A model generated the notes under the pieces. It was not told where the DNA came from, did not search any database, and was given only the letters and a program-made list of their open reading frames with translations. Source: Thalassotalea psychrophila (GTDB lineage: Bacteria; Pseudomonadota; Gammaproteobacteria; Enterobacterales; Alteromonadaceae). Taken from it: a stretch of 64,000 nt of DNA. The position numbers and the translations under genes were made by a program. Numbering within the stretch: position 1 is the stretch's first letter; the number at the start of each line of letters is the position of its first letter. The DNA lies in NCBI RefSeq assembly GCF_031583595.1, contig NZ_CP134145.1, forward strand, positions 3,658,001 to 3,722,000, read 5' to 3'. This document shows, in pieces, positions 7,111 through 24,224 of this stretch.

Positions 7111-7182
7111 ATGACAGACGATCTTTTCGCGCAATCAAATCATACTCCGATGATGCGTCAGGGTGTTAAAGCCTCCATATAG
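7111..7182 (+). pseudogene. mutS: Displaced native 5' end of mutS
   Basis: An ATG at 7111 opens a 23-codon frame encoding [17 protein letters not shown], after which it diverges and stops. NHTPMMRQ is the conserved start of MutS domain I and recurs in the intact mutS about 14.5 kb to the right ([13 protein letters not shown]). This is the original mutS start, left behind when the island integrated. It lies on the recA side, where a divergent mutS start would be expected. It could still be transcribed and translated as a short peptide. Confidence 0.85.
7136..7160 (+). repeat. Left attachment site of the mutS island
   Basis: The 25 bases here match 21682-21706 inside mutS at 22 of 25 positions, with an 11-base identical core CCGATGATGCG (7147-7157 and 21693-21703). 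All three differences are T/C changes at codon third positions, so both copies encode NHTPMMR. This is the expected signature of an integration site inside a coding sequence. Confidence 0.75.
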
Positions 7183-7220
7183 AGCCTTAAAGCCGGCTAC
7201 ATAAAAAACCCACACCCCAA

Positions 7221-7233
7221 CCTACACTAAAAA
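7221..7233 (+). repeat. Possible integrase arm-type site, left end
   Basis: CCTACACTAAAAA lies about 65 bases inside the left att site. The same word occurs at 21523, with close variants at 21488 and 21511 at the other end of the island. Repeats near both ends are typical of arm-type binding sites of tyrosine integrases. Binding is inferred. Confidence 0.5.
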
Positions 7234-7388
7234 CCAAATTATTCGCTAATGTCACAATATTATAGCCAGTAAGTGTTTTATTCATTTTAGTGATGGTCTA
7301 TTGATTGGTTTGAAGTTGTTAAGGTTGATACTCTGAGGGTCTGCTTCAGCCATAAGCGGAAGTAGAGCAATCAATAACTTAGTTCAGG

Positions 7389-7602
7389 TTATGCCACATT
7401 GCCGACGGTTTGGTTTGGCCTATGGATATGCAGGCTTCGCATAAACAACGACTCAGATCTTTCGGAAGAATTTAAGTCGATTTCTCCTAAGCAGACGTTC
7501 GAAACATCCAAATCCTAGTTTCTTGGCTTATTCGGTTTCGATCTTAAAACAAGGTGTGTTTGAGGGCGGGATACCAGGCTTGATCCGTCCCTTCAGTGCC
7601 AA
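7389..7602 (-). repeat. Inverted repeat, left copy (partner 11263-11464)
   Basis: Reverse-complemented, this 214-base stretch aligns along its length with 11263-11464. The best segment is 7389-7418 against 11435-11464, 30 bases with two mismatches. Other matches are TTGGCACTGAA, CGGATCAAGCCTG and AACGTCTGCTT. No coding sequence is evident in this copy. The pair brackets four genes, suggesting a decayed composite insertion or two old copies of one element. The gene-free stretch 7183-7622 consists mainly of this repeat. Confidence 0.75.
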
Positions 7603-7622
7603 TAACAGCCCATTAGCATTTG

Positions 7623-8372
7623 CTAATGTTCGATATTTACGTGCCTATAAGTAGCCGAAAGAATTGCGACGCTAAATACTCCAATAAAAGTAAAAGCCAC
7701 CCAATCTAGCAATAACAATAGAATGGAATCTACATAATAAAATTCCGAAAATAAAACATATATAGCTTCCGTTATTAATACAACAAACAGCATACTCAAA
7801 AACATCGCGCCTCTAGAACCTTTGGATAAGCTCAATGCGTGAGAAAGTGAAATTTCATTTTTAATCGCAATATGTGGTAAAGCTAATCCCCAGAAAGAGA
7901 GTACAACAATGAAACATAACTCCGTCGAAAATTTTAACGCTTTATAAATAACTCTAAGCGTATCTTCTGAGTAACCATCTAAAGCTAAAGAATAAGCCCA
8001 ATCACTTGAAATCCAATAGAAAGCGAAAGGAAAAAGATAGGTTATTAATATAGCTAACATGTATTTAAATTCTGTTAAGCCTAGTTTTATCCCCAACCTT
8101 GGAAAGTTTCCATGCTTATTAACAATCAATGCTCGGTGGATAGTAATAGCTACGTTAGCGTAAATTAAAAATATAAGGACATTGGTTAATAAATACAGAA
8201 ATCCTAATGCTGATTTTGCATGTGGTACGTAGTCGGGCAATAAATATAGCTCTAGAATAGCTAAAAACGTAAGAGGAACTAGAAGGTATTTTATTAGGGT
8301 GCTCTTATGTGTCTTTAATAGATTAATTGTGCCATCTAGAATTACTTTGGTATTTAGGTGGTTTAGTTGCAT
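7623..8372 (-). CDS. Hypothetical multi-pass membrane protein
   Basis: This 249-residue protein is strongly hydrophobic. There appear to be five or six membrane segments, for example LVPLTFLAILELYLL, FLYLLTNVLIFLIYANVAI, YMLAILITYLFPFAFYWI, LCFIVVLSFWGLALPHI, MLFVVLITEAIYVLF and a final stretch ending VFSVAILSATY. It has no family I can name; the architecture resembles DUF-type integral membrane proteins. It is the leftmost gene of the island, next to a lipoprotein and a secreted protein on the same strand, so an envelope role is likely. The intergenic hairpin at 8408-8455 separates it from the gene upstream. Confidence 0.7.
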   Translation of the reverse strand: MQLNHLNTKVILDGTINLLKTHKSTLIKYLLVPLTFLAILELYLLPDYVPHAKSALGFLYLLTNVLIFLIYANVAITIHRALIVNKHGNFPRLGIKLGLTEFKYMLAILITYLFPFAFYWISSDWAYSLALDGYSEDTLRVIYKALKFSTELCFIVVLSFWGLALPHIAIKNEISLSHALSLSKGSRGAMFLSMLFVVLITEAIYVLFSEFYYVDSILLLLLDWVAFTFIGVFSVAILSATYRHVNIEH

Positions 8373-8407
8373 TTAAATCCCTTTAACCTGTATTGAAAGA
8401 CTATATA

Positions 8408-8455
8408 TCGCTCTCAGGAGACCTTAACCTTTTCAAGATGTTAAGGTCAAATTTG
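8408..8455. repeat. Conserved intergenic hairpin, copy 1
   Basis: A 9-base-pair stem GACCTTAAC/GTTAAGGTC (8420-8428 with 8440-8448) surrounds an 11-base loop. The whole 48-base block matches 11501-11548 at 41 positions. One stem pair is C-G here and A-T in the other copy, so pairing is kept by compensatory change. This points to a selected or replicating structure. Confidence 0.7.
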
Positions 8456-8477
8456 TGACTATTAATTTTATCTAAAT

Positions 8478-8915
8478 TTATCTCATTAACTCGTGTAATT
8501 TATAACTTCGCATTGGACCACACATTATAATCCCACCGCTTTTGGTAGGTGGAAACTCATAACTAGTAGTTAAAAGTATATTCTTTATTTGAGTTCTATC
8601 TGCATAAAGATATCCAACGCTATACCCGTTTAAATCTACTTCATTGTACATTTCTTCATCGTCTTTCAAGACTTCATCAAGCTCGACCGACGTTTGCAGG
8701 ATTAGCTCTTCGTTTTCAAAAAATGATACTCGAAGTTTTGTTGCGGTTGCCCCTTCAATTATTGTTGGGACAAATACAGCTATACCATCTACTTTTTCAG
8801 TAGCAGAAGATTGCAATACCTTAGAAAAAGCAGGAAGTTCCTCAAGTTGCTTACTCGATGAACAGGCAATTACTGATGTTGATAGAAGCATTAATATTAA
8901 TGCGAAATATTTCAT
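8478..8915 (-). CDS. Hypothetical lipoprotein
   Basis: The 145-residue protein starts with a signal sequence (MKYFALILMLLSTSVIAC) ending in a lipobox-like SVIAC, so it is probably lipidated on Cys18 and held in the periplasm or outer membrane. The mature part is acidic, with no domain that I recognise. It lies upstream of the membrane protein at 7623 and downstream of another secreted protein, all on the minus strand. Confidence 0.7.
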   Translation of the reverse strand: MKYFALILMLLSTSVIACSSSKQLEELPAFSKVLQSSATEKVDGIAVFVPTIIEGATATKLRVSFFENEELILQTSVELDEVLKDDEEMYNEVDLNGYSVGYLYADRTQIKNILLTTSYEFPPTKSGGIIMCGPMRSYKLHELMR

Positions 8916-8970
8916 ATTATTCTTATTGTAACAGGCGGGTTATCGCTCAAATTAGTCTAATGGACATAAC

Positions 8971-9375
8971 TTATAAATTCATGAATTCATCGACATTAGC
9001 ATTACAGGATGTAAACAACTCTTCGTTATTAAGGGCAGACAAATCACCACAGATAACAGAATAGCCATTCTTTGTAATTTCATCCTTTATAGATGATGTA
9101 TTATCGTTAAATATTTCATAGAAAGGATTTATATAGGGTGCTAATGGTGAAAGCTGCTCGCCATATTTTACACGACTTGATACAGCTAAACGGACACTGG
9201 AACTATGGAACCGCTTACAGGCAGTAGATGCGCTGTCTTTACAGAGTATCAAGCTTGCCTTACCTTTTAATACGTGTTCCATCGTAGCTACATCATTCCC
9301 ACCTTGGTGATAACCGAAGGTATAACTAAACAAAGAAACTGCTAAAGCTAATGTTGTAATGATAAACGTTTTCAT
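8971..9375 (-). CDS. Hypothetical secreted or membrane-anchored protein
   Basis: This 134-residue protein has an N-terminal hydrophobic segment (MKTFIITTLALAVSLFSYTFGY) that may be a signal peptide or anchor. It contains four cysteines (LILCKDSASTACKRF, VICGDL, TSCNAN) that could form disulfides in the periplasm. No family was recognised. It lies in the island with two other small envelope proteins in the same direction. Confidence 0.65.
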   Translation of the reverse strand: MKTFIITTLALAVSLFSYTFGYHQGGNDVATMEHVLKGKASLILCKDSASTACKRFHSSSVRLAVSSRVKYGEQLSPLAPYINPFYEIFNDNTSSIKDEITKNGYSVICGDLSALNNEELFTSCNANVDEFMNL

Positions 9376-9678
9376 ATTAATCCTTTAATTTATTTTTATT
9401 TTTTTACTTCCGCTTGTCGCTCTTAACAGACCTTGAGTCGTGTTAATTATTTGTAAACATACAATACATGATGTTATTGTAATTACACAAGTTTTTTGTG
9501 GTCGTCACTGACCGCTTAGAGCGATAAGCGGAAGTTAAAAAACTTGCAAGATATTTCGCAATTTGGATGTATGCATACTAGATAAGCTCAGCTTATAAGC
9601 TAAACTCTATACATGCTGATAGCAGTACATTAGCGTAATGTAACAATATTTGTGTAAGTCTCTTTATAAGGTAATTTT
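9376..9678. repeat. Divergent intergenic region with 20-base inverted repeat
   Basis: No gene lies in these 303 bases between divergent genes. ACTTCCGCTTGTCGCTCTTA at 9406-9425 is repeated inverted at 9516-9535 with two mismatches. The TCGCTCT core recurs in other accessory spacers (8408, 11501, 60380, 61432). Promoters for both flanking genes must be here. An AAGG precedes the ATG at 9679. Confidence 0.55.
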
Positions 9679-11175
9679 ATGAATCTAAGAAAATCCGTAT
9701 TAACACTCAGTTTACTCGCATTGACTCAAGTCGCATGTTCAAGTACAGAAAATGAATCTATTAGTAGTGTAAACAGCCTTTCTGTTCCAGAGAATATTAC
9801 CACGCCAAACATTGTAAGAACTCAAGCCGTTGGTGATTTAAATTTTACAGATGGTTACCCGTCCGATGAAACCATGAGTAAGGTGCAACGCTACATGTTT
9901 GTACAGCGTGCTGTTAATGCGTTTGTCGATGGTATTCCAATTAGTTCAATGCATGCCATGCTAGAAGGTGGTAAGTCTCTTGGTGGAAAAGCTAATCAAT
10001 CGGTACTTATCAGTGAAAGTTTAATAGATAAAAATAGTTTATGGCTTACTCCAAATTCAACAACACCTTATATCTCTATTGAAGTAGATGTAAAAAATGG
10101 TCCTGTTGTTTTAGATATAAACAGCGCAGTTTTAGGGCTGGTCGATGATGCTTTTTTCAAATATGTCGGTGATATTGGTTTAGGCAACCCAAAAGATAAA
10201 GGCAAAGGTGGTAAATATTTATTAGTACATGACAGCTTTGAAGGTGAAATACCTAGTGGCTTTATTGTACTGAAAACGCCAACTTATCGAAACTGGGTGC
10301 CAATGCGTTTAAATAGCACAAAAGATGTAAAACAGTTTAAAGATACGTTTAAAATGCATCCGTTAGGACAAGAGCCTAAGATGGACTTCATCGATTTTAG
10401 TAGCGTGAAATATAATACGATTCACGCTAACAACGAAGACTTTTATCGCGAACTAAATGCAGTCATTCAGTACGAGCCTATTACCGCAGGCGACTCACAC
10501 TACCGAGGTTTAATTGCAGAAATCGGTATTGAGAAAGGAAAAGAATTTAACCCGCAAGGAGAGCAACTAGCAGCATTAAAAGAAGCCGCTGGTATTGCTA
10601 ATGTTCATGCTCGTAATGAAGCGTTCCGCCCTACCAATAAAGACGTTTATTTTTATGGTGACGATCGAAACTGGTTTTTACCGTTTGGTAGCACCATGTC
10701 TCACGAGTTTACCAAAGACGGCAAAGTATTTATTGATGATAAAACAGCCTTTCATTACATAGCGACAGGTATCACGCCATTAATGACAGCACAATTTGAT
10801 GGTGCGGGAAGCTCTTATCTTGTTACTACGCAAGACGAAAAAGGCGCAGCCCTAGACGGTAATGAAACCTATACTATTACCTTACCACCTACCCCACCAA
10901 TGAAACGTTTTTGGAGCTTTATGGTATACGACAACCAAACTCGTAGCATCTTGCCGACAGAGCAGCGTTCAGGTGGATTTGATAGCACAGGTGAAGTTGC
11001 AAAAAATCAAGACGGCTCAGTAACAGTCACCTTTTCACCTACTAAGCCAGAAGGCAAAGTAAATTGGGTGCAGACACTATCAAATAAAGGTTTTTTCGTG
11101 ATGTTTAGAATGTACTCTCCAACTCAAGAGTGGCATGACCGAAAATACATGATAGGCGATTTAATCAAACAGTAA
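9679..11175 (+). CDS. DUF1254/DUF1214 domain lipoprotein
   Basis: The 498-residue protein begins with a lipoprotein signal (LSLLALTQVAC, likely lipidated on Cys20). The DUF1254 region follows (about 50-180, with QRYMFVQRAVNAFVDGIP and TPNSTTPYISIEVDV). The C-terminal DUF1214 region (about 330-490) has NWFLPFGSTMS, PPMKRFWSFMVYDNQTRS and MFRMYSPT. Such proteins are widespread in Proteobacteria. They are exported and have no firmly known reaction. It is the only plus-strand gene in the left part of the island and lies between the arms of the 7389/11263 inverted repeat. AAGG is well placed before the ATG. Confidence 0.85.
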   Translation: MNLRKSVLTLSLLALTQVACSSTENESISSVNSLSVPENITTPNIVRTQAVGDLNFTDGYPSDETMSKVQRYMFVQRAVNAFVDGIPISSMHAMLEGGKSLGGKANQSVLISESLIDKNSLWLTPNSTTPYISIEVDVKNGPVVLDINSAVLGLVDDAFFKYVGDIGLGNPKDKGKGGKYLLVHDSFEGEIPSGFIVLKTPTYRNWVPMRLNSTKDVKQFKDTFKMHPLGQEPKMDFIDFSSVKYNTIHANNEDFYRELNAVIQYEPITAGDSHYRGLIAEIGIEKGKEFNPQGEQLAALKEAAGIANVHARNEAFRPTNKDVYFYGDDRNWFLPFGSTMSHEFTKDGKVFIDDKTAFHYIATGITPLMTAQFDGAGSSYLVTTQDEKGAALDGNETYTITLPPTPPMKRFWSFMVYDNQTRSILPTEQRSGGFDSTGEVAKNQDGSVTVTFSPTKPEGKVNWVQTLSNKGFFVMFRMYSPTQEWHDRKYMIGDLIKQ

Positions 11176-11262
11176 AAATGAGACGCCATGAAGGTCAATT
11201 TACTTTCATGGCTGACTCAATATAGAGCAATAATCACTCTATTTGAGCTTAAAAGACTATAC

Positions 11263-11464
11263 TTGGCACTGAACGACCGGATCAAGCCTGACATTTTGCT
11301 TTCCTTTTTAGAACCAAATCGAATAACGGGAAAGCCGGAACTTAAAAGTTTCAAACGTCTGCTTTCTGGAATCTCCTATAGTTTCCATCGTAAGCCAGTA
11401 TTAAGATTTTAAGTGGACCTTGAAGAACAATAGCCCAAACCAAACCGTCAGCAAAGTGGCATAA
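11263..11464 (+). repeat. Inverted repeat, right copy (partner 7389-7602)
   Basis: This is the second copy of the diverged repeat described at 7389. It includes most of a 74-codon open frame (11188-11412), but the corresponding left copy has no equivalent frame and no ribosome site precedes it, so it is treated as non-coding. The rest of the gene-free stretch 11176-11657 holds the hairpin at 11501 and the leader of the gene at 11658. Confidence 0.7.
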
Positions 11465-11500
11465 ATTGACTACAGTATTGAATCGCAACCCGTCCGCTGC

Positions 11501-11548
11501 TCGCTCTATGGAGACATTAACCTTTTCAATAAGTTAATGTCAACTTTG
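11501..11548. repeat. Conserved intergenic hairpin, copy 2
   Basis: The stem GACATTAAC/GTTAATGTC (11513-11521 with 11533-11541) has an 11-base loop. It is the direct-repeat partner of 8408-8455, with a compensatory A-T for C-G change in the stem. It stands about 110 bases upstream of the restriction-type gene. Confidence 0.7.
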
Positions 11549-11657
11549 CAGCATTAACTTGATAATCTATATCAAGTAGGGATAGCATAGTTAAAGTTTT
11601 ACGCAACTAATTTAGCTAATAAAGCGTTTTTTGATCAATCAATAATACGGATAAGTA

Positions 11658-12968
11658 ATGACTAGCAAACTTACAATAGGTACATCAGGAAGGATACTAA
11701 AGTTTTATCGACTCATAGAGGGGATGACGTCGGACTATATAAACAATGCTGTAATAGAGTACGAACTTAAAGATGGGTTAATCGAAAGTTATGGGCCCTC
11801 AACAGGCTTTGACTTAAAGATCGAAGGTAAATTTTACCCACCAAAAGCGATATTGGGTCTGGCCGTTAGTAATTACTTAGGCGAACCTATCCTTGCAAGT
11901 CACTTTAGTGGTGGTAAAGGCTCTGATTGTTTCAGGCTGCTTGAATTATTAGATTACGAGATTGTAGATAAATATCTTACCAAAGCCAGGGAAGAGTTGA
12001 TCACCTATGCTGAATATTCACGACTAGACTTACATAATATTTTTGATGCTGATTCAAATTTCACTGTTGGTTCTGGTAAGTGGGGCTTACAAGGTATTGT
12101 AAGATTGAACCCTAGTTTAGGTGATTTTGCTTTTTTAGTAACATTGAAAGGGTCGAATGTTTATCATGATAAATTGAGCAAAGATGGATATTTGTTCTGG
12201 TTGTCACAATCAAAGCAAAAATTATCTGATCCAATGATAAAACATTTTATAAATTTTGATCATCATAATAATCATATCTTGTTATTTTCTCGACCTACCG
12301 AAGATGATGACTATACATTTTTTGGTAAAGTCAGGTTTGACAGCTATGACCCCAAGAGCAGCGAGCCCGTTAATATAAATTGGGAGTTGGAGAATAAATA
12401 CTTTCCCAATAGAGTACTTGAAAAATTTGATAGTTACTTGAGCGAGCCCTTTGTAGGTAAAGTTCTCCCTAAGTTAGTTCCTGTAGAGGATGATAAGCAA
12501 AGGCCTAAAGCTACCAAACCTAAAACGTCAAAGAAGAGGGCTAAGCCCAATAAAGTAGATTGGGAAGCTAAATGGTTAAGACAAAATGAAATAGGCATGC
12601 TTGGTGAGGCTCTTATATTGGAGTTTGAGCGTCACCGTTTGATTGAAGCCGGCTGCGAGGACTTAGCTAATAAAATCCAATACATAGCATCTGTTGATGA
12701 CTCTGCTGGGTACGATATACTTTCTTTCGATCACAGTACTAGTAACCCTATTCAGATTGAAGTTAAAACAACAACAGGTAGTTTGTATTCGGATTTTTAT
12801 ATAACGGACAATGAAGTTGAAAAAGCCAAAGAGTATGGTTCTAGTTATTGGATTTATAGAGTCTACAATCTTGAATACAAGAGTGGTAGTAAAGTTAGAC
12901 GCATACAAGCACCATTTGATGAAAAGCTAACTTTAAAGCCTCAAACCTATAAAGCGAAGCTTATATAG
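11658..12968 (+). CDS. Probable modification-dependent (type IV) restriction endonuclease, DUF3427 + DUF3883
   Basis: Three parts are visible in 436 residues. The N-terminal region (about 20-90) with YPPKAILGLAVSNYLG resembles the head domain of ScoMcrA-type restriction enzymes. The middle (about 110-265) has the DUF3427 pattern: FTVGSGKWGLQGIVRL, LFWLSQSK, NHILLFSRP and FFGKVRF. That domain is often found on helicases and is related to modified-base readers. After a lysine-rich linker, the C-terminal DUF3883 domain (about 310-415) has GYDILSF and QIEVKTT, matching a PD-(D/E)xK nuclease core (D, then E-x-K). I infer that it cuts foreign DNA carrying modified bases. It abuts a convergent small gene with no gap and lies in a mobile island, as expected for defence cargo. 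Confidence 0.75.
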   Translation: MTSKLTIGTSGRILKFYRLIEGMTSDYINNAVIEYELKDGLIESYGPSTGFDLKIEGKFYPPKAILGLAVSNYLGEPILASHFSGGKGSDCFRLLELLDYEIVDKYLTKAREELITYAEYSRLDLHNIFDADSNFTVGSGKWGLQGIVRLNPSLGDFAFLVTLKGSNVYHDKLSKDGYLFWLSQSKQKLSDPMIKHFINFDHHNNHILLFSRPTEDDDYTFFGKVRFDSYDPKSSEPVNINWELENKYFPNRVLEKFDSYLSEPFVGKVLPKLVPVEDDKQRPKATKPKTSKKRAKPNKVDWEAKWLRQNEIGMLGEALILEFERHRLIEAGCEDLANKIQYIASVDDSAGYDILSFDHSTSNPIQIEVKTTTGSLYSDFYITDNEVEKAKEYGSSYWIYRVYNLEYKSGSKVRRIQAPFDEKLTLKPQTYKAKLI

Positions 12969-13226
12969 TTATAACCAATATGTGTGCTTTGCCTTTAGCT
13001 TCAATTGAGTGCCAAACATGCGAGCTTTCTTTCGTTCAAGAATGAGTAGCTCATCTTCTGGGCATTCACTATTCATCGCTACATGTGCTTCAGCTTGCTT
13101 TAAACTTCCGAAGTGACAGATTATCTTATCTAGGCTAGATGACTTCACAAATGGCTCTGAATTGCCGTTTACGAGTGATATCCATGTTTGTACTAAAGTC
13201 ACGGGGACTTTGATTGGCTTATCCAT
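12969..13226 (-). CDS. Hypothetical small protein
   Basis: This is an 85-residue protein of unknown function. The frame is open further upstream, but the ATG at 13224-13226 has an AGGA ribosome site at proper spacing and gives MDKPIKVPVTLVQTW. Its stop codon abuts the stop of the convergent restriction-type gene exactly. The protein is mixed and basic towards the end (LERKKARMFGTQLKLKAKH), with no membrane segment. Confidence 0.55.
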   Translation of the reverse strand: MDKPIKVPVTLVQTWISLVNGNSEPFVKSSSLDKIICHFGSLKQAEAHVAMNSECPEDELLILERKKARMFGTQLKLKAKHTYWL

Positions 13227-13348
13227 AAGAGCTTGTCCTTTATGTTTACGGAGCCTTAAGCCTAGCAGAATGCTTGTAACTATCAAATTAGGCCAAGTGG
13301 AGTTGGTGTGTTATGTTTTAATCATCAAAAATGGATAAGTGATAGAGC

Positions 13349-13552
13349 ATGGATCCAAATAATAATGTGACCCCTGACGTAACAGAAAAACCTAAATACG
13401 AACCGGTACCTATATTCGTTACATATGCCCGCCCAAGCAGCCCAAACTATAAACCTGAATCGTTGATAGAGAAGTTCAAGCGTATATATTCAATCAAGAT
13501 TTGGTTGTTCATTAAGAAGATCAAACGTAAGATCTTGAGGCTGATTAGCTAA
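13349..13552 (+). CDS. Hypothetical small basic protein
   Basis: This 67-codon frame has a proline-rich first half (MDPNNNVTPDVTEKPKYEP) and a very lysine- and isoleucine-rich C-terminus (IKIWLFIKKIKRKILRLIS) that could be an amphipathic helix binding membrane or nucleic acid. The ribosome site is weak. Coding status is uncertain; I recognise no family. Confidence 0.35.
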   Translation: MDPNNNVTPDVTEKPKYEPVPIFVTYARPSSPNYKPESLIEKFKRIYSIKIWLFIKKIKRKILRLIS

Positions 13553-13724
13553 CCTAGCCGGCTTAAGGTCAATCGTAGACCAAACGGGTTGGACTGTTGT
13601 CGAGTGCCACATTGCTGCATATTTTCTATATTAAAAAGATTGTATACGGATTAGCTTTTTTATCGATAACGCTTTGTTAATTTTCACTATGAGTTTACGA
13701 ATGAACTTTAGCAACTTGTATTCG

Positions 13725-14108
13725 TTACCATGCTTCACTTTCGTTTGGGACTAGATCAATTAGATCGATCTCGAGCGTCCCTTGTTCAGAATTACCTGAT
13801 GCCTCCAATTGCGCTCTAACAGGGGCTGTGGAAGTTCCATCCCTTGGAATAACAAGGATACTGTATTGATGACTCATAGAGTTAAAGAAACTCTGCAAAT
13901 TCAACTCTAGGGAAGTTCCGCAAATGAAAAGAACATCCCAAAGACGTGCATTTTGCTCTTGAAAACCTTGTTCATCAGTGTTTTTTTGCTCCCAATGCAC
14001 ACATAAATTCCACAACTTCTGTGTTAAAAAGACGGGCGCGCCTATTGTGTTGAAGCCATAACCTACATCCGCTGCAGTTTCTGACACATCAATGAGCTCT
14101 GAATCCAT
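13725..14108 (-). CDS. DUF6573-like cassette protein
   Basis: The 127-residue protein has LIDVSETAADVGYGF, TQKLWNLCVHWEQKN, ARLWDVLFIC and VIPRDG in order. This is the pattern I associate with the DUF6573 family of plasmid- and phage-borne proteins of unknown function. It is the leftmost member of the minus-strand cassette-like array. Its start lies 35 bases from the attC-like site at 14143. A degenerate site may follow it near 13667-13730. Confidence 0.6.
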   Translation of the reverse strand: MDSELIDVSETAADVGYGFNTIGAPVFLTQKLWNLCVHWEQKNTDEQGFQEQNARLWDVLFICGTSLELNLQSFFNSMSHQYSILVIPRDGTSTAPVRAQLEASGNSEQGTLEIDLIDLVPNESEAW

Positions 14109-14142
14109 GATCGATATTATCCTTTTGGTGAAAACGCATCAC

Positions 14143-14235
14143 GCTCAAATAACGAGCTATGAAATAGTTGGCTAAAGTTATCGACTAAGGAGCAAAAACC
14201 AACTGTTTTTTGTCCTTTTGAATGACCTGTTAGGC
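14143..14235 (-). repeat. attC-like recombination site D
   Basis: GTTAGGC (14229-14235) overlaps the stop of the gene at 14230 and corresponds to R''. The other end is GCTCAAA (14143-14149), one mismatch from the R' core. Inner arms AGTTGG (14166-14171) and CCAACT (14199-14204) are complementary. The GAAATAGTTGGCTAAA stretch is nearly identical to site A, so both belong to one site family. Confidence 0.65.
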
Positions 14236-14631
14236 CTTTTTGAAACGCTTAGCTTTGGCAATGCTTGGCATAGCTAGTTGTCTATATGCAACTGTTACAT
14301 CTTGAAGTTTTATGCCGAATTCTTTTACTTCTTCGTTAGACCAATTATCAGGGTTTAACCAGTATTCTGATTTGTGTTCACAAGCCATAGCTAGCTCTTC
14401 ATCAATATGCCTTATTGGTATTGCCGCTGCGCCCCAATATTTAACTAATTGAGCTTCTGTTTCTTGATTTCGTTCAGAGCCAGAATCAAGAGAGCGATAA
14501 TATATTTTTGTTTCTTGAAGTGCAGTTGATATTGCTCGTAAAGCGCTATCTTTCAATTCACGTTTTTCTTTAGATAAAGTAGCAATAGGCCCCATTAGAG
14601 CGATTAATTTTGTTACTAAAAACTCAAGCAC
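14230..14631 (-). CDS. Hypothetical cassette protein
   Basis: This soluble, helical 133-residue protein contains AALRAISTALQ-like helices, AAAIPIRHIDEELA and YWLNPDNWSNEEVKEFG. I recall similar hypothetical proteins in integron cassettes, but no function is known. The frame has an upstream ATG at 14661, but that lies inside the attC-like core. The GTG at 14629-14631 is preceded by AAGGAG and is the better start. Confidence 0.65.
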   Translation of the reverse strand: MLEFLVTKLIALMGPIATLSKEKRELKDSALRAISTALQETKIYYRSLDSGSERNQETEAQLVKYWGAAAIPIRHIDEELAMACEHKSEYWLNPDNWSNEEVKEFGIKLQDVTVAYRQLAMPSIAKAKRFKKA

Positions 14632-14648
14632 TGAATTCTCCTTAAAAT

Positions 14649-14749
14649 GCCTAACACCCATTTAAGGGGGTGATAATAGTTTGCTAAAATGTGTACCGAA
14701 GCGAAACAGAGCAAACTGTTAGCAGTCCCGCTTTAAACTATTGTTAGGT
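14649..14749 (-). repeat. attC-like recombination site C
   Basis: Outer cores GCCTAAC (14649-14655) and GTTAGGT (14743-14749) are complementary. Inner arms AGTTTGCT (14678-14685) and AGCAAACT (14710-14717) are perfectly complementary. The R'' core lies within the last codons of the gene at 14733. It is the clearest of the four sites. Confidence 0.75.
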
Positions 14750-15233
14750 TTATATTTGCAACCCAAGCTTTAATTACTATATCTAAAGGGTTAACGGTAA
14801 AAAGTATAGCTGCCAAACGGTGATTACCATCCATTACACTAAAACCATCATTTATCCTTGTAAGAATTATAGGCGTCGGAATATTTCCATGCTCTTTTAT
14901 ATAGGAAACACATGACTGAAATCTCTCTTTGGTATTTTCTACATTAGCGGTGTCGGTTAGTTTGCCATAAGCGGCATTACCAACAATAGCCGTGGCCATA
15001 GAAATACTGCCATTTGTAAATTTACTTTGAGGCAAATTAATATCGATTAATTCCCACGTACAATCAATCCATTGCCGCAAGGTGAAATCAATGCCTAATA
15101 CATAGCGCCAATTAGTGGCCTGTAAATCATCTTCAACAGTTTTGAATGGCCATCCTTTACCTTCAATTAATGGTGCTAACCATATTTCAAAAACCTCATC
15201 AGGCATATTTGGAAAAAACTCACGAGGCTTCAT
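14733..15233 (-). CDS. Hypothetical cassette protein with ParB-like DGNHR motif
   Basis: The 166-residue protein has PTPIILTRINDGFSVMDGNHRLAAILF near its C-terminus. The DGNHRLAA segment matches the GxHR-type motif of ParB/sulfiredoxin-fold domains, which can bind or hydrolyse nucleotides. The N-terminal two thirds has no recognised family. Whether it has catalytic activity is unknown. The last codons contain the R'' core of the attC-like site C, and the start is only six bases from site B. Confidence 0.65.
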   Translation of the reverse strand: MKPREFFPNMPDEVFEIWLAPLIEGKGWPFKTVEDDLQATNWRYVLGIDFTLRQWIDCTWELIDINLPQSKFTNGSISMATAIVGNAAYGKLTDTANVENTKERFQSCVSYIKEHGNIPTPIILTRINDGFSVMDGNHRLAAILFTVNPLDIVIKAWVANINLTIV

Positions 15234-15238
15234 TTTAA

Positions 15239-16088: not shown

Positions 16089-16526
16089 CTATAAGTAATT
16101 AATTGGCCTTGGTGATTTATAATTTAAGTCGCGGTTTGCACATCTGCAACTTAAACAATTCCATGGTTTAGTTCCGCCACCTTGTAGCCGAATTAATTGT
16201 TGTTCTTTATCGTAGCATTTCTGACAAAAAGGTCCGTCCTTTTGATCATCGACTTTTACAAAATAATATGGCTTTTCCCAAATCACTGCTTTTTTTGTAG
16301 CTAATTGATTAACCAATTCGGTGATTTTTTGCTCTTTATCAAACAATAGTGCTTGCACATCGGCAAGGTCAATTTTTGCATCAGCTAAAGCACTAATTAA
16401 TTCAGCAAATTGTAATTTTACTTCTGCCTTTTCAAGGGAAGTGCCACTATTTTTTATTAACCTAGCTATATCTGCAGCAGTTTTTATGCTCCCTAGGGCT
16501 GCGCCGATCATTGCTATATCAGTCAT
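16089..16526 (-). CDS. Hypothetical protein with C-terminal zinc-ribbon-like cysteines
   Basis: The 145-residue protein has a helical N-terminal half (SIKTAADIARLIKNSGTSL, AEVKLQFAELISALADAK, then a short coiled coil). Its C-terminus has two CxxC pairs (FCQKCYD and WNCLSCRC) likely to bind zinc. This arrangement is common in phage- and island-borne hypothetical proteins. AAGGAG precedes the ATG. It is the first gene of the minus-strand attC-separated run, with no attC-like site clearly visible upstream of it. Confidence 0.7.
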   Translation of the reverse strand: MTDIAMIGAALGSIKTAADIARLIKNSGTSLEKAEVKLQFAELISALADAKIDLADVQALLFDKEQKITELVNQLATKKAVIWEKPYYFVKVDDQKDGPFCQKCYDKEQQLIRLQGGGTKPWNCLSCRCANRDLNYKSPRPINYL

Positions 16527-16807
16527 GTTATCTCCTTATGTACAATAGTTTTATTAAGTGGAAAAATGTATGGAAGACGGAATTATTACACCTATCAACA
16601 AAGTTTATTTTGTCTACAGCAAGCTTGAAGTAAGTGACCCAAGATTAGTCTAAGTGGAAGTTAACTATCTGCTAACGTAAGCTTATCCTACTGATATTGA
16701 GGGTATTGTCAATGACCCCAGATAGTATTGGTAGCCACATTAAAAGACTAATAATTAAAGCGAACACAGCCAATGTAATGGCTCTTCAACTTGATCTTAG
16801 TGCATCA

Positions 16808-17341
16808 TTAATCATCATCCCTTGGCAATGGTGAGTCGTTTGTACTTTCACCGGCCTCTTTCGATATTTCAGCAATCAAGTTGGTGATAGTCATTGCTCC
16901 ACCAATCTCGGACTTATCAACAAACAAGGCCAGCATTTTACCTAATTGCTCTTGGATTCGTATTGCTGCACCTAAATCTGTTTCTTTAACTTGCGCTTCT
17001 ATAAATTCACCATTGAATGATGCAACTTTATGCACTTGTCCATCGCCAAACGCCAATTCAAGCAACTTAAACTGGTTTCGTAACCAATCTTGCTTGGTAT
17101 AACTTAACTCTTCGAATGCTTTTGCTGATGAACTCTCAAGCAATGACTTGTAGTAAGTCTTAACGGGTACATTTCGCATACATCGTTTTGCTGCGTTATT
17201 AATAGTTTGTTGTGTTGAGTTATCGCATTTATAGCCTGCTAACTCATATGCCTCGGATTGTATTTTACCCTTGGCGCATAACTCAGCAAATAACTTTTGT
17301 TTTGGGTTAAGTTTAGTTGCCAGGTTAATTGAATCGGTCAT
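16808..17341 (-). CDS. Terminase small subunit-like protein
   Basis: The 177-residue protein starts at the ATG at 17339-17341, which has AGGGA upstream; the longer frame would run back into the preceding gene. LNPKQKLFAELCAKGKIQSEAYELAGY matches the N-terminal helix-turn-helix region of phage terminase small subunits, which recognise packaging sites. No large terminase, portal or capsid gene is present. A lone small terminase in an island with an integrase and an excisionase is a hallmark of phage satellites that redirect helper-phage packaging. That role is inferred here. Confidence 0.7.
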   Translation of the reverse strand: MTDSINLATKLNPKQKLFAELCAKGKIQSEAYELAGYKCDNSTQQTINNAAKRCMRNVPVKTYYKSLLESSSAKAFEELSYTKQDWLRNQFKLLELAFGDGQVHKVASFNGEFIEAQVKETDLGAAIRIQEQLGKMLALFVDKSEIGGAMTITNLIAEISKEAGESTNDSPLPRDDD

Positions 17342-17399
17342 CAGTTTTATTCCCTGTGTTGTGTTCGTTGAATTGAGTTCGCATACATCGCTTTGTAGC

Positions 17400-18254
17400 T
17401 TAAAATTGAGACATTTCAATTGCATCCGCCCGGACCCTAGTCCCAAACGGTTCATCTTCGATTAGGTTTTCAGTATTTGAGGCTAGGAACCAGCTTAGGT
17501 TTACTTGTTTGCTTTTTCGGGCAACATTTCTCTCTTCGTATCTAAATTGAAGATACTTAACAAAATCGTTCATTGAATCAAAGTTATACATGAAGTCATC
17601 TAAAGCAGATAATGTTTCAATAATGGAATCGTTTGGCGTAGGACCAATGTTTACATTAGCGACATCGAGTGACCACTTATGCGCAGTCTCATATAGCTTA
17701 ATAGCAAACTCAATGTCACCTTTAGAAACCCCATGACCTAATAAATTTGTGGTTATCTCGCTTAACACTTGTGCTTGCCTAATAATATTTACCGATGCCA
17801 CAGATGATAATCTGTGTTGAGACCGGTGTTCTTGTTCTTTACTTAATGTTCTTTCTTTAATGTTATTTACTTGTGCCATTTTGTCTATAGAGCTCGAGAC
17901 AAAATGCCTATAGGGCTCAGGACATTTTGTCTCTAGCCTATTAAGGAATAATTTAACCTTATTTGGGTTCAGATATATCACTCTTTCTCGGCCTCCTTTG
18001 CTATGAATGTACTTCGTTGTTCTTGATATTAACCCTTTGGCCTCAAGGTCTGATAAAGCTCTATCAACGGTTCTAACATTTATCCCTAGCTGTGCAGCAA
18101 AGCCTTTATTGCTTTTGAATATCTTATCTACGGCTTCGCTTAACGATACCAAGTCAGCAAATATCAACCTTTGGGCAAGCGGCCACTCGTTATAGGCTAG
18201 GAGCGTTTTGGGTATCCATAGACCTTTGTATTCGGTGTTTTTTTTGTTGTTCAT
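17400..18254 (-). CDS. Helix-turn-helix replication- or regulation-type island protein
   Basis: The start is placed at the ATG at 18252-18254, which has AAGG upstream, giving 284 residues. The N-terminal half is a winged-helix domain: LAQRLIFADLVSLSEAVDK, then FAAQLGINVRTVDRALSDLEAKGLISR, the pattern of HTH proteins that start plasmid or phage replication or act as regulators. The C-terminal half is helical with no known family. In satellites, such a gene upstream of the terminase subunit is often the replication initiator. The exact role is uncertain. Confidence 0.6.
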   Translation of the reverse strand: MNNKKNTEYKGLWIPKTLLAYNEWPLAQRLIFADLVSLSEAVDKIFKSNKGFAAQLGINVRTVDRALSDLEAKGLISRTTKYIHSKGGRERVIYLNPNKVKLFLNRLETKCPEPYRHFVSSSIDKMAQVNNIKERTLSKEQEHRSQHRLSSVASVNIIRQAQVLSEITTNLLGHGVSKGDIEFAIKLYETAHKWSLDVANVNIGPTPNDSIIETLSALDDFMYNFDSMNDFVKYLQFRYEERNVARKSKQVNLSWFLASNTENLIEDEPFGTRVRADAIEMSQF

Positions 18255-18366
18255 GTGAGACCTTAGATATGCAAACGATACTGCAAAGTCGAATAGGATA
18301 AGCGTTGCATCAATGGCCTTAGTGTTAGCCACTGAGCTTTGCCAGCCAATTGTATTCGAAAAAATA

Positions 18367-19179
18367 TCACTTACCTTTCGGTTCGTATATTGACGGAAAG
18401 TCTAGAAAGTCATCATGCTCTTTTCTAGCTTTGTTATATGCGGTTATAGCATCATTTTCGTTTCGGAAGCTTCCTAGGTGTTTGTCGCAAAACCTTGCAG
18501 TATAACTACCTTTTTTATTTGAGCTAACACCTGCACAGCCACTAGAATTATTTGTTTGCAATGGCCTTTTTATGTTGTTTGCCGACGGAGTAATAACTTG
18601 CAAGTTTGTAATTTTATTGTTTAAGCCGTTGCCAAAAATATGATCCACGTATAGCCCAAGAGGAATTTCACCATTAAAGTAAATCCATACAAGTTGATGC
18701 TCGGGATACTCAATACCTTTGATTTGTATATACCAATAACTATCTTTCTGTCGTCCTGTTCGAGTTCTCTTGACTGAACCATTTTTAACTTTTATCGAGT
18801 ACAATTTCCCATCGAAATACTCGAACCTGTTCCTTATTTCTGCACTAAGAAGTGGTGGGGTCGGCTTAACTTTATCAATTCGATAATCAGCGACTTCCCT
18901 AATCCTTCTTGTGTGCAGATGCTTAATCCAATCATAAATTTCATAGTTACCACACACGGCCATTTGCTGCTTACTTAATGGACCTAAAATCAATGCATAG
19001 ACGACGTCTAGCCAGCGATACTTTCGCTCTTTAATGACACAACAAAGTAATCCGTTTACACCTTTATATGCTTTAATTTCTTTGTCACTTGGTATAAGCA
19101 ATAGTGCTTTGTCTCGAAGCCTTACTGTCCCACGTAAATTCTCGACGCCGGCGTAAGTTCTTATTAGGTTTTGACTCAT
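18367..19179 (-). CDS. HNH endonuclease with AP2 DNA-binding domain
   Basis: A central HNH_3-type core is visible (EHQLVWIYFNGEIP, then YVDHIFGNGLNNKITNLQVIT). It is followed by an AP2-type DNA-binding domain near the C-terminus (GVSSNKKGSYTARFCDKHLG, then ENDAITAYNKAR). This is the layout of phage homing endonucleases. The N-terminal 100 residues are unassigned. The ATG at 19177-19179 has AAAGG at good spacing and is preferred to the one seven codons upstream. The gene is probably an island nuclease or self-spreading element. Confidence 0.8.
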   Translation of the reverse strand: MSQNLIRTYAGVENLRGTVRLRDKALLLIPSDKEIKAYKGVNGLLCCVIKERKYRWLDVVYALILGPLSKQQMAVCGNYEIYDWIKHLHTRRIREVADYRIDKVKPTPPLLSAEIRNRFEYFDGKLYSIKVKNGSVKRTRTGRQKDSYWYIQIKGIEYPEHQLVWIYFNGEIPLGLYVDHIFGNGLNNKITNLQVITPSANNIKRPLQTNNSSGCAGVSSNKKGSYTARFCDKHLGSFRNENDAITAYNKARKEHDDFLDFPSIYEPKGK

Positions 19180-19296
19180 AGATAGCCTTTTATTCGCCAT
19201 GTTCTGATGTTATTATGGCGTTGTAGTATTGAAGCGGTTAGTCATCGCATTGTATAAATAGGTCGCTGTCTGGCGGCCTTTTTGCTTTCTGATTAG

Positions 19297-19470
19297 CTAG
19301 CTAATTTGATTAGCACTTATAAAACGGTCTATTTCACCCCTTGTGATGCGGACACAGCGGCCAACTTTAAATGCTTTTAGCTTTCCTGAACGGATTAAAT
19401 TCCAAAGGTGAGTGCGGCTGATTAAAAGTTCGGCACGTGCATTTTCTAGGGTTAAAATTGATTGGTTCAT
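19297..19470 (-). CDS. AlpA/excisionase-type HTH protein
   Basis: The protein is about 57 residues. The helix-turn-helix LTLENARAELLISRTHLWNLI followed by SGKLKAFKVGRCVRITRGEI is the MerR-like fold of AlpA and excisionase proteins. These bend DNA at att sites or switch on integrase and excision genes. The start is set at the second ATG of a tandem pair, five bases after GAGG. It lies between the integrase unit and the HNH gene, as in P4-like satellites. Confidence 0.75.
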   Translation of the reverse strand: MNQSILTLENARAELLISRTHLWNLIRSGKLKAFKVGRCVRITRGEIDRFISANQIS

Positions 19471-19579
19471 CATGGCCTCATGTTGTTTGTATTTGTACAC
19501 TGAGGGCATTATGAGGGGGTAAATTGATAAGATAAATTCAATTTTTTGAGTTTAATTGAGCCGCTATTGTCCTCTTACT

Positions 19580-20149
19580 TTATTCAGTTGATTTTCGTTT
19601 ATGTTCAAAGTAAAGAATATGATTATGCATGTTTTGTATAGATGTTAACTCTCGTATGGCTGCTGGTTTACCCTCCGCCACTACCAAGGCCATCAAGCAG
19701 TTAATATCGTTTTGGATCTGTTGAACGCCATTACGTTTTATATATTTTTGGTACTCTAATCGCACGGTATCAACTGAACGATGATCTTCATTGGCTACTA
19801 ACTCCCAAGCTTCCTTTTCCATCATCCCACTTGAGATTAAACGCATACATTTAAAGACTCTTCTGAGTACGTCAGGCTTAGCCTTGTTACCAGCTTTCTT
19901 TGATGGATTAATAAATGGCGCTGTTCTTTTCTTTCTTATTAGCTCTTGGCTAGCTTCCATTACAGCGTGGGCATATGCCTTTCCTGCTTCAAGAGGTAAG
20001 TTACCTTTCGCTAACAACGCAGTTGCAAAACTGAAAGAATCATCAGGAAAGAACTCGTCCAGGTTTGGTGACTCATAGTTAAAGGTCAAGGTAGCCCAAT
20101 GTTTTAGGTACATAGATTTCTCTCGATCACAGCCTTTAAATTGCTTCAT
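19580..20149 (-). CDS. Hypothetical protein coupled to the integrase
   Basis: This 189-residue soluble protein has no family I recognise. Its ATG shares a base with the integrase stop (TAATG), so it is probably translated together with the integrase. It is rich in charged helices (KAGKAYAHAVMEASQELIRKK-like stretch, then CMRLISSGMMEKEAWELV). The tight coupling suggests a role in recombination or its control. Confidence 0.65.
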   Translation of the reverse strand: MKQFKGCDREKSMYLKHWATLTFNYESPNLDEFFPDDSFSFATALLAKGNLPLEAGKAYAHAVMEASQELIRKKRTAPFINPSKKAGNKAKPDVLRRVFKCMRLISSGMMEKEAWELVANEDHRSVDTVRLEYQKYIKRNGVQQIQNDINCLMALVVAEGKPAAIRELTSIQNMHNHILYFEHKRKSTE

Positions 20150-21423
20150 TATGCCAACGCCAACATAGGTACTACGTTCTTAACAGCTTTAAGTGTATCA
20201 AGATAATCACACCATACTTGCAGCCATTCCTTACATTCAGCCTCGTAAGTGTAAAGATCGTATACACCCTGTACGCCACCTTTGGTGTGGCCCAATATAG
20301 CTTCGGCAATATCGCTAGGGCATTTCAATTTAGATAAGCTGGTGCGAACGGTTCTTCGTAAGTCATGCGGTGTCCACCGATTAATCTTTAGGTCGGTTCC
20401 ATCTTTGCGCATTCTCCACATTTGCTCAGTGATTTTCTTTTGCTCCACTGGCTTCCCTAGCCTTTGGGTAAAGACATACTCACTACTTCCTTTATCTATG
20501 CCTTTTAAAAATTGGATAGCTTGCGTAGATAGCTGAACAGATCGCTCAACACCTGTTTTGGTTTCAGCTAGATGCCAAATACCTTTATCATAATCAAGTG
20601 ATGACCATTTCAAAGTACAGGCTTCACCAGTACGACAGCCTGTTAGCAACGTCATCATCAACACACCTTTTTGTCCTTTAGTAAATTTGGAGTCTGGTAG
20701 CCAATTAAGCAGCGTGGATAATTCACCATCATTCAGCACTCTTTTTCCCCGAGTGTTTGTTAGCTTAACCTTTTGTAACTTAAAGTTTGATTTCGCCTGT
20801 AAGCAAGGATTAACAAAGTCATCATCAAACAATCCCTTACCCATGGAGTAGTTGTAAGCGGCTAAAAACTCTCTTAAGACATTACCTGCTTGTACGCTTG
20901 CACCTCGTTCAACAATGGCATCGATCATGTTGTATGCCATTCGGTGAGTTACATCGGCAGCAGGGAGATGTCCAAGAACAGCAACGGCATCATTATTCAA
21001 CGTTCTTCGTGTTTCATCAGCACCTTTTGTAGTTCGCTTCTTCTCAACATGGCGCGTTAAGTAAAGCTCGCACATTTGCTCGACTGTAAAAGCAAGCTTG
21101 GCTTTCTCTTCCTGTTCAGCCTTTCTTTGTGCCCGTTGTTTCTTTCTTTCTTCTAACGGGTCTTTATTTTCAACGGTGCGAAGCTTCTTCTTTTCAGCAA
21201 GTAGCATTCTTGCTTCTTTCAAATCAACAGACGGGTAATTACCAAGCTTTATTTGTTTTAGTTTACTGTCCATTCGGTAGCGATAAGTCCAAGATTTAGA
21301 GCCTGACTTGTTCACAATAATGCGTAATCCACCATTAGGAGGGGTGTCAGATAAAAAGCCTGATTTTACGTTTTTAACAGCGAGCGCTGATAATGGTTTT
21401 CTGTTAGTATTGTTTTCGGCCAT
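20149..21423 (-). CDS. Tyrosine integrase of the mutS island
   Basis: The 424-residue P4-family recombinase has an N-terminal arm-binding DUF4102 domain (GLRIIVNKSGSKSWTYRYR, LGNYPSVDLKEAR). A SAM-like core-binding domain follows at about 110-210. The catalytic domain shows the active-site arginine in LLTGCRTGEA, HDLRRT with the second arginine, LGHTKGG, and the tyrosine nucleophile in VYDLYTY. It lies at the right end of the island, transcribed away from mutS, with three CCTAYACTA repeats just upstream. It is expected to recombine the att site inside mutS. Confidence 0.93.
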   Translation of the reverse strand: MAENNTNRKPLSALAVKNVKSGFLSDTPPNGGLRIIVNKSGSKSWTYRYRMDSKLKQIKLGNYPSVDLKEARMLLAEKKKLRTVENKDPLEERKKQRAQRKAEQEEKAKLAFTVEQMCELYLTRHVEKKRTTKGADETRRTLNNDAVAVLGHLPAADVTHRMAYNMIDAIVERGASVQAGNVLREFLAAYNYSMGKGLFDDDFVNPCLQAKSNFKLQKVKLTNTRGKRVLNDGELSTLLNWLPDSKFTKGQKGVLMMTLLTGCRTGEACTLKWSSLDYDKGIWHLAETKTGVERSVQLSTQAIQFLKGIDKGSSEYVFTQRLGKPVEQKKITEQMWRMRKDGTDLKINRWTPHDLRRTVRTSLSKLKCPSDIAEAILGHTKGGVQGVYDLYTYEAECKEWLQVWCDYLDTLKAVKNVVPMLALA

Positions 21424-21487
21424 GAGATTACTTACCTTAATCTGTGGTTTAGGTTTAGGAGTGTTACAGCACTCCTTAACCGACCAA

Positions 21488-21537
21488 CCTATACTAGCAC
21501 CAAATACAAACCTACACTAGCACCTACACTAAAAAAA
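21488..21537 (+). repeat. Three CCTAYACTA repeats, possible integrase arm sites
   Basis: CCTATACTAGCACC (21488), CCTACACTAGCACC (21511) and CCTACACTAAAAAAA (21523) lie in the same orientation between the integrase start and mutS, and a fourth copy is at the left island end (7221). Repeats near both ends suit arm-type integrase binding. They also overlap the region that must now drive mutS and integrase transcription, so they may link the two. Confidence 0.6.
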
Positions 21538-21641
21538 GTTTATTTGCGTGAACGTTGGTGAACAAAGAAAAACAAAGAAAAACAAAAAGACAAGTGACAA
21601 ATACGGGCACACCCTACAAAAATAAAGAGCTGAGCAACCTA

Positions 21642-24224
21642 GTGACCAATAAAAATCTAGTACAAAATGAAATAGACTTCCCAAATCACACCCCGATGAT
21701 GCGCCAATATTTAAAAATCAAATCAGAATTTAAACATATTTTAGTGTTTTATCGAATGGGCGACTTTTATGAGTTGTTTTTTGATGATGCTAAAAAAGCC
21801 TCCGAACTATTAGATATATCCCTCACCGCCCGTGGCAAAACTGGCGGTAATGCGATTCCTATGGCTGGTGTGCCTTATCATGCTGTTGAGAATTATCTTG
21901 CCAGATTAGTACATATGGGAGAGTCGGTGGCTCTCTGCGAACAAATTGGTGATCCCGCTACAAGCAAAGGACCCGTTGAACGCAAAGTTGTACGAATAGT
22001 TACACCTGGTACTATCTCTGATGAAGCATTATTAGAAGACAAACAAGATAACTTGCTTGTTTCTATTTTTGCAATGCAAGAAAAGTTTGGTATTGCATAC
22101 CTAGATATGAGTAGTGGCCGATTTGTAGTATGCCAACCCAATAGTGAAGAGCAATTACAAGCTGAGTTACAACGTCTAGCTCCGGCAGAGTTACTTTATC
22201 CTGAATCTTTTGAATACCTTGATTTAATTGAACACATCAAAGGCAAGAGACGCCGTCCTGACTGGGAGTATGATTTAGATACTGCGGTTAAAATATTAAA
22301 TAAACAGTTTGGAACCAAAGAACTCGTTGGCTTTGGCGTTGATGATTATCATTATGGCTTAGCTGCAGCGGGCTGTTTATTACAATATGTTAAAGATACT
22401 CAACGCAGCGAATTACCGCACATCAGAAGTATTAAAGCGGAAGCTTATGCCCAAGGAGTAATTTTAGATTCAGCAACTCGTAAAAATTTAGAGCTAACGC
22501 AAAATCTTTCTGGCGGAATTGATAACACCTTGGCTTCAGTTCTTGATAAAACTGCGTCGCCAATGGGATCTAGGCTATTAAAGCGCTGGTTGCATTTTCC
22601 ACTAAGGAACATTGAAGCATTAGAAGATCGTCAAAATGCGATTTCTGCAATTATTACTGAAGATATGCAAGGAGATGTTTTTGATACCATTAAGGGCATT
22701 GGTGATATTGAACGGATTATTGCTCGTATTGCCCTTAGAAGTGCCAGACCAAGGGATTTTGCCCGTTTACGTAACGCGTTAGGTTTGTTACCAGAGCTTA
22801 ATCAATTGTTATTGTTAAATTCTCAGCCTTATATGCAACAACTAGCAAAAGTAAGCCGCCCTATTCCGCAATTACATCAATTGTTAGCCAACGCTATTAT
22901 TGATAACCCTCCGGTACTTATTAGAGATGGTGGAGTGTTAGCTCCTGGTTACAATAGTGAATTGGATGAGCTTAGAAACTTAAGCCAAGGTGCGAGCAAT
23001 TTTTTAGCTGAATTGGAACAACGAGAACGTGAAAAAACAGGCATAAGCACACTAAAAGTTGGTTACAACAGAGTTCATGGTTTTTATATTGAGATCAGCC
23101 GTAGAGAGTCTAATGAGGTGCCTGTTGAATACATCCGCAGGCAGACCCTTAAAAATAATGAACGCTTTATTACTGAAGAGTTAAAATCTCATGAAGAGAA
23201 AGTCCTTACCGCACAAAGCCGCTACCTTGCTTTAGAAAAACGTTTATATGATGAGTTGTTTGATCAACTTGCACCGTTTATTGAGCAATTACAAAAGTGC
23301 TCTGAAGCTGTTGCTAGTCTTGACGTTTTGAATAACTTTGCCGAACGAGCATTAACGTTAAATTATAATAAGCCGGCTTTAAGTAAAAAACCTGGTATAC
23401 ATATTAATGCAGGTCGTCATCCAGTTGTCGAGCAAGTCACAAAAGACGCTTTTATCGCCAATCCAGTAGAATTGTCTGAACATCGAAAAATGTTGATTAT
23501 CACCGGTCCTAATATGGGCGGTAAATCAACTTACATGAGACAAACAGCTCTTATTACACTATTAGCTCATGTTGGTAGTTATGTTCCAGCAGACAGTGCC
23601 GAAATAGGACTGGTCGATAGAATTTTCACTCGTATAGGTGCTTCTGATGATTTAGCTAGTGGCCGCTCAACATTCATGGTAGAAATGACCGAAACGGCTA
23701 ATATCCTACATAATGCTACTGAACAGTCATTAGTGTTACTTGATGAGATAGGTCGCGGCACAAGCACTTATGATGGATTATCATTGGCTTGGGCCTGCGC
23801 AGAATACTTAGCGATAAACAGCAAAGCATTTACCTTATTTGCCAGTCATTATTTTGAACTTACCGAGTTAGCTGAACAACTAGACACACTGGCGAATATT
23901 CATCTTGATGCAATGGAGCATGATGACACAATTATTTTCATGCATGCTGTACAAGAAGGTGCAGCCAGTAAGAGTTTCGGTTTACAAGTAGCGCAACTAG
24001 CAGGTGTACCTAAAACAGTGATTAAACGAGCAAAACAACGCCTGCAGGAGCTTGAATTGCAAGCACCTGCAACTGTGATAACAAATCAGCAAGCGATTGA
24101 GTTACAACAAGGTATGTTTGTTGAGGAACATCCAATGATTAAGCAATTAAAAGCACTTAACATTGATGATATTACGCCAAGACAAGCGATGGAATTGTTA
24201 TTCGAGTTGAAAAATAAAGTATAA
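21642..24224 (+). CDS. mutS: DNA mismatch repair protein MutS with island-supplied N-terminus
   Basis: MutS recognises mismatches and starts repair with MutL. All domains are intact: mismatch-binding domain with [11 protein letters not shown], connector and lever regions, Walker [10 protein letters not shown], Walker [17 protein letters not shown] and [10 protein letters not shown]. Codons upstream of NHTPMMRQ come from the island, not from native mutS. No in-frame ATG exists before MMRQ. Candidate starts are TTG 21555, GTG 21558, 21594 or 21642. The last gives [20 protein letters not shown] and 860 residues, close to the family norm, but none has a good ribosome site. The native start is stranded at 7111. 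Confidence 0.93.
21682..21706 (+). repeat. Right attachment site of the island, inside mutS
   Basis: This is the partner of 7136-7160, with 22 of 25 identical bases and the common core CCGATGATGCG at 21693-21703. It lies within the codons for NHTPMMR, so recombination between the two sites would restore a native-type mutS start. Confidence 0.75.

Follow-up and report, generated by a model that had tools for sequence, protein, structure and literature searches.

The mutS gene of Thalassotalea psychrophila is interrupted near its 5′ end by an element of 14,546 bp, which lies within the 64,000-nucleotide stretch of DNA analyzed here (hereafter, the window) and which core comparison places between two identical 11-bp blocks (Table 1). 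The core, CCGATGATGCG, encodes residues P-M-M-R of the motif HTPMMRQ, and the insertion point falls within codons 13 to 16 of the native gene. At the element's other end, away from the mutS body, the sequence ATGACAGACGAT... from 7111 encodes the 17-residue native MutS N terminus and then runs into island DNA, and after the second core the remainder of mutS is open to 24224. The host genome is a single contig with a single MutS match, and both MutL and MutH are encoded. Short repeats near the two element ends, ACCTACACTA, could be arm sites of the integrase; an Rfam scan of 5400-25400 gave no match.

Table 1. Features of the interrupted mutS locus (positions within the window)
Feature	Positions	Strand	Basis or remark
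Stranded native mutS start (MTDDLFAQSNHTPMM...)	7111..7157	+	13 codons before MM; ends with left core
Left core (attL), CCGATGATGCG	7147..7157	+	11-bp identity block, repeated at 21693-21703
Repeat ACCTACACTAAAAACC, possible integrase arm site	7220..7235	+	Same motif near right end
Cargo ORF, 249 aa	7623..8372	-	No Pfam match
Cargo DUF1254/DUF1214 protein	9679..11175	+	Pfam 8.1e-21 and 2.2e-29
Cargo NOV_C/DUF3427 protein, defence candidate	11658..12968	+	Pfam; PADLOC PDC-S36 5.5e-36, PD-T4-1 4.2e-20
Terminase small subunit-like protein (TerS)	16808..17455	-	phrog_51 2e-16; inner start gives 16808-17419
Replication-initiation-like protein	17400..18332	-	phrog_270 1.2e-9 and others
HNH endonuclease	18367..19200	-	PF13392 2.5e-11; phrog_99 5e-41
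AlpA-type/excisionase-family DNA-binding protein	19297..19509	-	PF12728; phrog_66; TIGR01764 5.3e-7
Tyrosine integrase, 424 aa, divergent from mutS	20149..21423	-	PF00589 1.7e-24; PF13356 2.5e-14; groups with mutS-adjacent integrases
Three ACCTAYACTA copies, possible integrase arm sites	21487..21531	+	Repeat search
Most likely element-borne mutS start, GTG (putative)	21642..21695	+	18 codons before MM; SD -2.2; within 6-20 codon range
Right core (attR), CCGATGATGCG	21693..21703	+	Second copy of 11-bp identity block
mutS body	21696..24224	+	842 codons from MM, plus stop; all MutS domains

A preliminary description of this DNA had placed the native first codons of mutS at 7111 and the rest of the gene at about 21.7 kb, and had proposed that the island replaces the upstream region, the start and the first residues of mutS. 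Both placements are confirmed: mutS resumes at the right core, and the uninterrupted genes of the two nearest relatives (G003 and G005, 95% MutS identity) encode exactly the 17-residue N terminus of the stranded remnant. The replacement itself is supported by these relatives and by the joining of the flanks described below. Two outcomes had been named as telling against it, namely island-free relatives sharing the N terminus encoded by the leader, or a lack of relatives with the native start; G003 and G005 carry the native start. Across the genus, 15 genomes were searched and 14 had a readable mutS 5′ end, with mutS uninterrupted in 12 of these; the other two are the window's own genome and G007, in which a second element, with an integrase 52% identical to that of the window, lies beside mutS. 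The stranded start matches G003 and G005 at 37 of 42 nucleotides each, and by inspection all five differences are synonymous. Since mutS dS to the relatives is above 1 and yet the residues of the stranded start are unchanged, the insertion appears to be either recent or else repeated or repeatedly reversed.

Outward from mutS, the element encodes the integrase, an unassigned ORF, the AlpA-type protein, the HNH endonuclease, the replication-like protein and the TerS-like protein, followed by hypothetical ORFs and cargo. PICI/PICMI-type phage satellites are small islands with an integrase, an AlpA-type regulator, a replication-like gene and a TerS gene. The window's element is like them in gene set, the comparison being one of gene content: integrase, regulator, replication-type and packaging-type genes are present, and the scans run (PHROGs on 10 of the 17 ORFs) found no capsid or tail protein. 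The satellite-like cargo of the preliminary description is thus supported by the TerS-like, Rep-like and AlpA-type genes. TerS has matches in 3 of 196 family genomes, the source genome included, and none among 50,697 phage records. In G117 (locus L238, 11912-15935), a TerS relative of 47% identity and an integrase 24% identical to that of the window are about 2.3 kb apart, with no match to any further island protein; this association with a distant integrase suggests modular exchange, and by its genes L238 is probably a further satellite that shares this packaging-type gene. The NOV_C/DUF3427 protein is, from its matches, a candidate for anti-phage cargo. For the DUF1254/DUF1214 protein, a search of other mutS elements found no relative.

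A rival reading is that the element is a stranded, immobile relic and the altered start of mutS a fixed local change. The GTG-only start described below fits this, as does the comparison of the 16 non-integrase island proteins with 85 other loci, in which only two, the DUF6573 and AlpA-type proteins, found a match, each at one locus. Against it, none of the frames for the integrase and the AlpA-type, Rep-like and TerS-like proteins is interrupted, and the residues kept in the stranded start point to recent or repeated insertion; we regard a relic as unlikely.

The integrase is related to those found beside mutS in other bacteria, in a comparison that covered integrases other than that of Vibrio splendidus 12B01 itself. 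The nearest integrases, P0001-P0004, are 85-89% identical to the window's. The family search gave 30 loci for examination, of which the five best adjoin mutS, and a mutS-adjacent integrase occurs in at least 10 of 394 genomes of the order, a lower bound because 30 loci were examined. Among the integrase loci of named genomes, 75 of 80 are at mutS: 73 adjoin its 5′ end by tblastn, and L084 and L099 are contig ends showing the mutS leader. The other five (L069, L102, L103, L118 and L126), with integrases 45-51% identical to the window's, are at other genes. Nearly the same integrase as in L069 and L102 occurs at mutS in L086. The tree had 94 rows, L121 and L126 being left out as too short; in it, one group (100/99) of 87 comprises 82 mutS rows and five others; finer placement within the tree is unsure because of long branches, the window's included. 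Thalassotalea eurytherma and Colwellia are also in the bacterial family: over 160 nt, the junctions in G084, G199 and G178 do not differ from those in the named loci L120, L073 and L115, respectively. In Escherichia coli, a query taken from the Klebsiella element L055 is matched over at least 80% of its length in 13 of 5,426 genomes, a count that misses elements with other integrases. Viral contigs yielded 13 loci, and L127 alone adjoins mutS.

Elements of this kind were described by Chu et al. in 2017 (PMC5296598), who report elements that insert at the HTPMMQQ motif in mutS genes of Beta- and Gammaproteobacteria, orphan the host start and carry a start and promoter region of their own. As characterized there, these elements share with ours the insertion at HTPMM(Q/R)Q, the host start cut off beyond the element, the element DNA joined to mutS and the related integrases beside it. 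The particular points of the window's element are its length of 14.5 kb, its satellite-like genes (TerS, Rep-like and AlpA-type) and a leader with only a GTG in frame. In a term search of the main text of that paper, the words “Colwellia,” “Thalassotalea” and “satellite” were absent.

To compare the starts that such elements supply, we counted an ATG or GTG that lies 6 to 20 codons before MM and is not separated from it by a stop. There were 88 junction rows, 83 of them distinct; dropping the five duplicates and the window left 82, and the contig ends L084 and L099 stand outside both this count and the mutS-integrity count below. An in-frame ATG or GTG is present at all 82 other distinct junctions, compared with 6 and 0 of 82 in the two shifted frames; 78 have an ATG, and four start with GTG. 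Inspection of these two contig ends shows an ATG in L084 but just a TTG, 12 codons upstream, in L099. The locus L055 (Klebsiella pneumoniae ATCC 13883, the GTDB species representative) is a mutS element with the in-frame ATG start MSTIENLDSHTPMM. Peptides supplied by elements echo native ones: for example, L055 and L171 supply MSTIENLDSHTPMM, while the stranded peptide of L170 and L171 is MSAIENFDAHTPMM. Recombination may make use of such an echo next to the core, but it would not require an in-frame start. A start lying inside element DNA serves mutS only while the element is integrated, and the count of 82 of 82 argues that selection acts on these elements to keep mismatch repair working.

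The preliminary description had stated that the window's leader has no ATG. In frame there is indeed none, but a GTG at 21642, which is in frame, had been overlooked. It is the only in-frame ATG or GTG that the leader has 6 to 20 codons before MM; since 455 of 5,000 shuffles also give one by chance, it is suggestive and not proof. The frame is open for 48 codons before MM, a length reached by 110 of 5,000 shuffles. Initiation at this GTG would give a MutS of 860 aa. Its anti-Shine-Dalgarno score is -2.2 kcal/mol, that of the native ATG at 7111 is -0.1, and among the 12 native mutS starts of the genus, 11 have weaker scores than this GTG. The supposed absence of a good ribosome site is therefore not discriminating, and we rejected it as a sign of silencing. 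Seven proteins of a large database share words with MutS residues 1-60, which include the N-terminal extension, none of them at E ≤ 0.001. Consensus promoters stayed at chance level throughout: the mean best score over 83 leaders was 8.45 (8.61 in shuffles), the window's leader gave one hit against 0.7 expected, and the native region 6700-7160 gave four against 3.7. An out-of-frame ATG at 21667, which may be due to chance, lies two bases off the position used in the Colwellia elements and stops at the third codon.

The reading that we favor, and consider probable, is that the window holds a satellite-like element of the known mutS kind, whose own in-frame start keeps MutS made and whose precise excision restores the native gene. 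The integrase would act on the conserved codons of mutS that specify H-T-P-M-M-R-Q, recombining the element there; integration would leave the native start cut off beyond the element and join element DNA with its own start to mutS. MutS would still be produced from this element-borne start, with transcription presumably coming from the element; GTG-21642 is the most likely start, and its 18 residues before MM would take the place of 13 native ones. Precise excision would return the native mutS. Weighing against this reading are the lack of an in-frame ATG in the window's leader, promoter scores no better than those of shuffles, the rate at which shuffles give such a GTG by chance, the two broken frames among 70 discussed below, the alternative that frequent excision keeps mutS intact, and the five of 80 integrases located elsewhere. 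Because such islands normally supply a start and were already described in 2017, the window represents a new example and not a newly found mutator switch; as it fits the mutS elements of PMC5296598, the main idea was already in print, and the polarity of the proposed switch is unsupported. To the elements reported in that paper, the analysis adds a satellite-like member from the bacterial family to which Thalassotalea and Colwellia belong, together with the count of in-frame element-borne starts at 82 of 82 other distinct junctions.

Signs of a repair defect were sought in mutS itself and in neighboring genes. For mutS integrity, 14 of the 88 rows were dropped (duplicates, short loci and the window) and four loci had no room; in 68 of the 70 loci with room, mutS is open for at least 780 codons. 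Past the junction, mutS is broken in L124 (Lonsdalea britannica), open for 88 codons, and in L113 (a Marinobacter antarcticus MAG), open for 166. The dN/dS of the window's mutS is 0.022 against G005 and 0.020 against G003, and 0.016 between G003 and G005, values that come with dS near saturation, because it exceeds 1. We also took 462 kb around mutS in the window's genome and 400 kb in G003 and G005, and examined genes intact in two of the genomes in the third. Split frames numbered 0 of 197 in the window's genome, 1 of 197 in G003 and 0 of 195 in G005, with 0, 1 and 2 partial or other cases, respectively; apparent internal stops in 6, 2 and 3 genes reflect over-long N-terminal calls or lie at the C terminus and were not counted as broken. 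Judged from sequence, the orthologue and dN/dS data speak against a long-lasting repair defect, brief or partial defects being outside their reach. Alternatively, an intact mutS could be maintained by frequent excision.

These data bear on the switch put forward in the preliminary description. In this strain such a switch would mean that a poor GTG or the internal ATGs at 21696 and 21699, with no good promoter, lower or abolish MutS until excision restores repair. Several points speak for it: the window's leader has no in-frame ATG, unlike 78 of the 82 other junctions, and no promoter above chance, and precedents exist for host genes affected by islands. At the 5′ end of dusA, islands such as IMEVchUSA3 swap promoter, start and N terminus and the gene is still expressed (PMC8409611, PMC4482086), as is prfC after a comparable swap by SXT (cited in PMC8409611), but dusA expression is reported to drop when the island supplies the start (PMC8409611); the target gene differs from ours, and expression was measured for dusA, whereas the window is known as DNA sequence. 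The preliminary description had cited the streptococcal parallel in mutL, a real case: integration of SpyCI in Streptococcus pyogenes stops transcription of the mutL operon, reversibly (PMC4129442). Both islands sit at the start of a mismatch-repair gene, yet SpyCI silences its operon, whereas the window's element most likely supplies an in-frame start; according to the same review, SpyCI lacks a terminase subunit, and the window's element has a TerS-like gene. Against the switch, GTG-21642 outscores the native ATG in its Shine-Dalgarno match, GTG starts occur at four other junctions, no orthologue among 197 has a split frame and mutS dN/dS is low. Integration as the off state is not supported, given replacement starts at every other junction, mutS frames open in nearly all loci and no excess of broken genes in the window's genome, and as a proven mutator switch it was rejected as the leading reading; we consider it improbable. 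A softer version, in which the start has decayed to a weak GTG in this lineage such that integrated cells are low in MutS and mildly mutating and excision restores full repair, seems to us to have a slim chance of being correct. If true, its polarity would be opposite to that of V. splendidus 12B01, and movement of a TerS-bearing satellite could tie mutation rate to phage infection. Its GTG-only leader makes the strain a natural test case for an effect of the swap on MutS dosage.

The opposite polarity is documented in V. splendidus 12B01, where MutS is functional with the element integrated and excision loses 2 bp, yielding hypermutators; excision without deletion is reported for E. coli 536, Pseudomonas putida F1 and Burkholderia multivorans CF2, with none detected in Enterovibrio norvegicus FF-162 (all PMC5296598). 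That the window's element behaves as in 12B01, with normal integrated cells and a frameshifted mutS after excision, is very improbable. Its cores agree at all 11 bp and share one reading frame, and a script that joined the flanks gave an intact mutS of 855 codons, the same length as in G003 and G005; we therefore rejected a scar of the kind left by excision in 12B01, and the earlier proposal that excision would restore the native gene agrees with this predicted junction. The predicted joins are also in frame in L077, L115, L120, L170 and L171, for which both ends were found. In L115 (Colwellia sp. DT_21), the far end, about 7.6 kb from the mutS junction, has an element-type leader, HNKNMTDLSSHTPMM, with no obvious host start, perhaps the mark of a tandem insertion.
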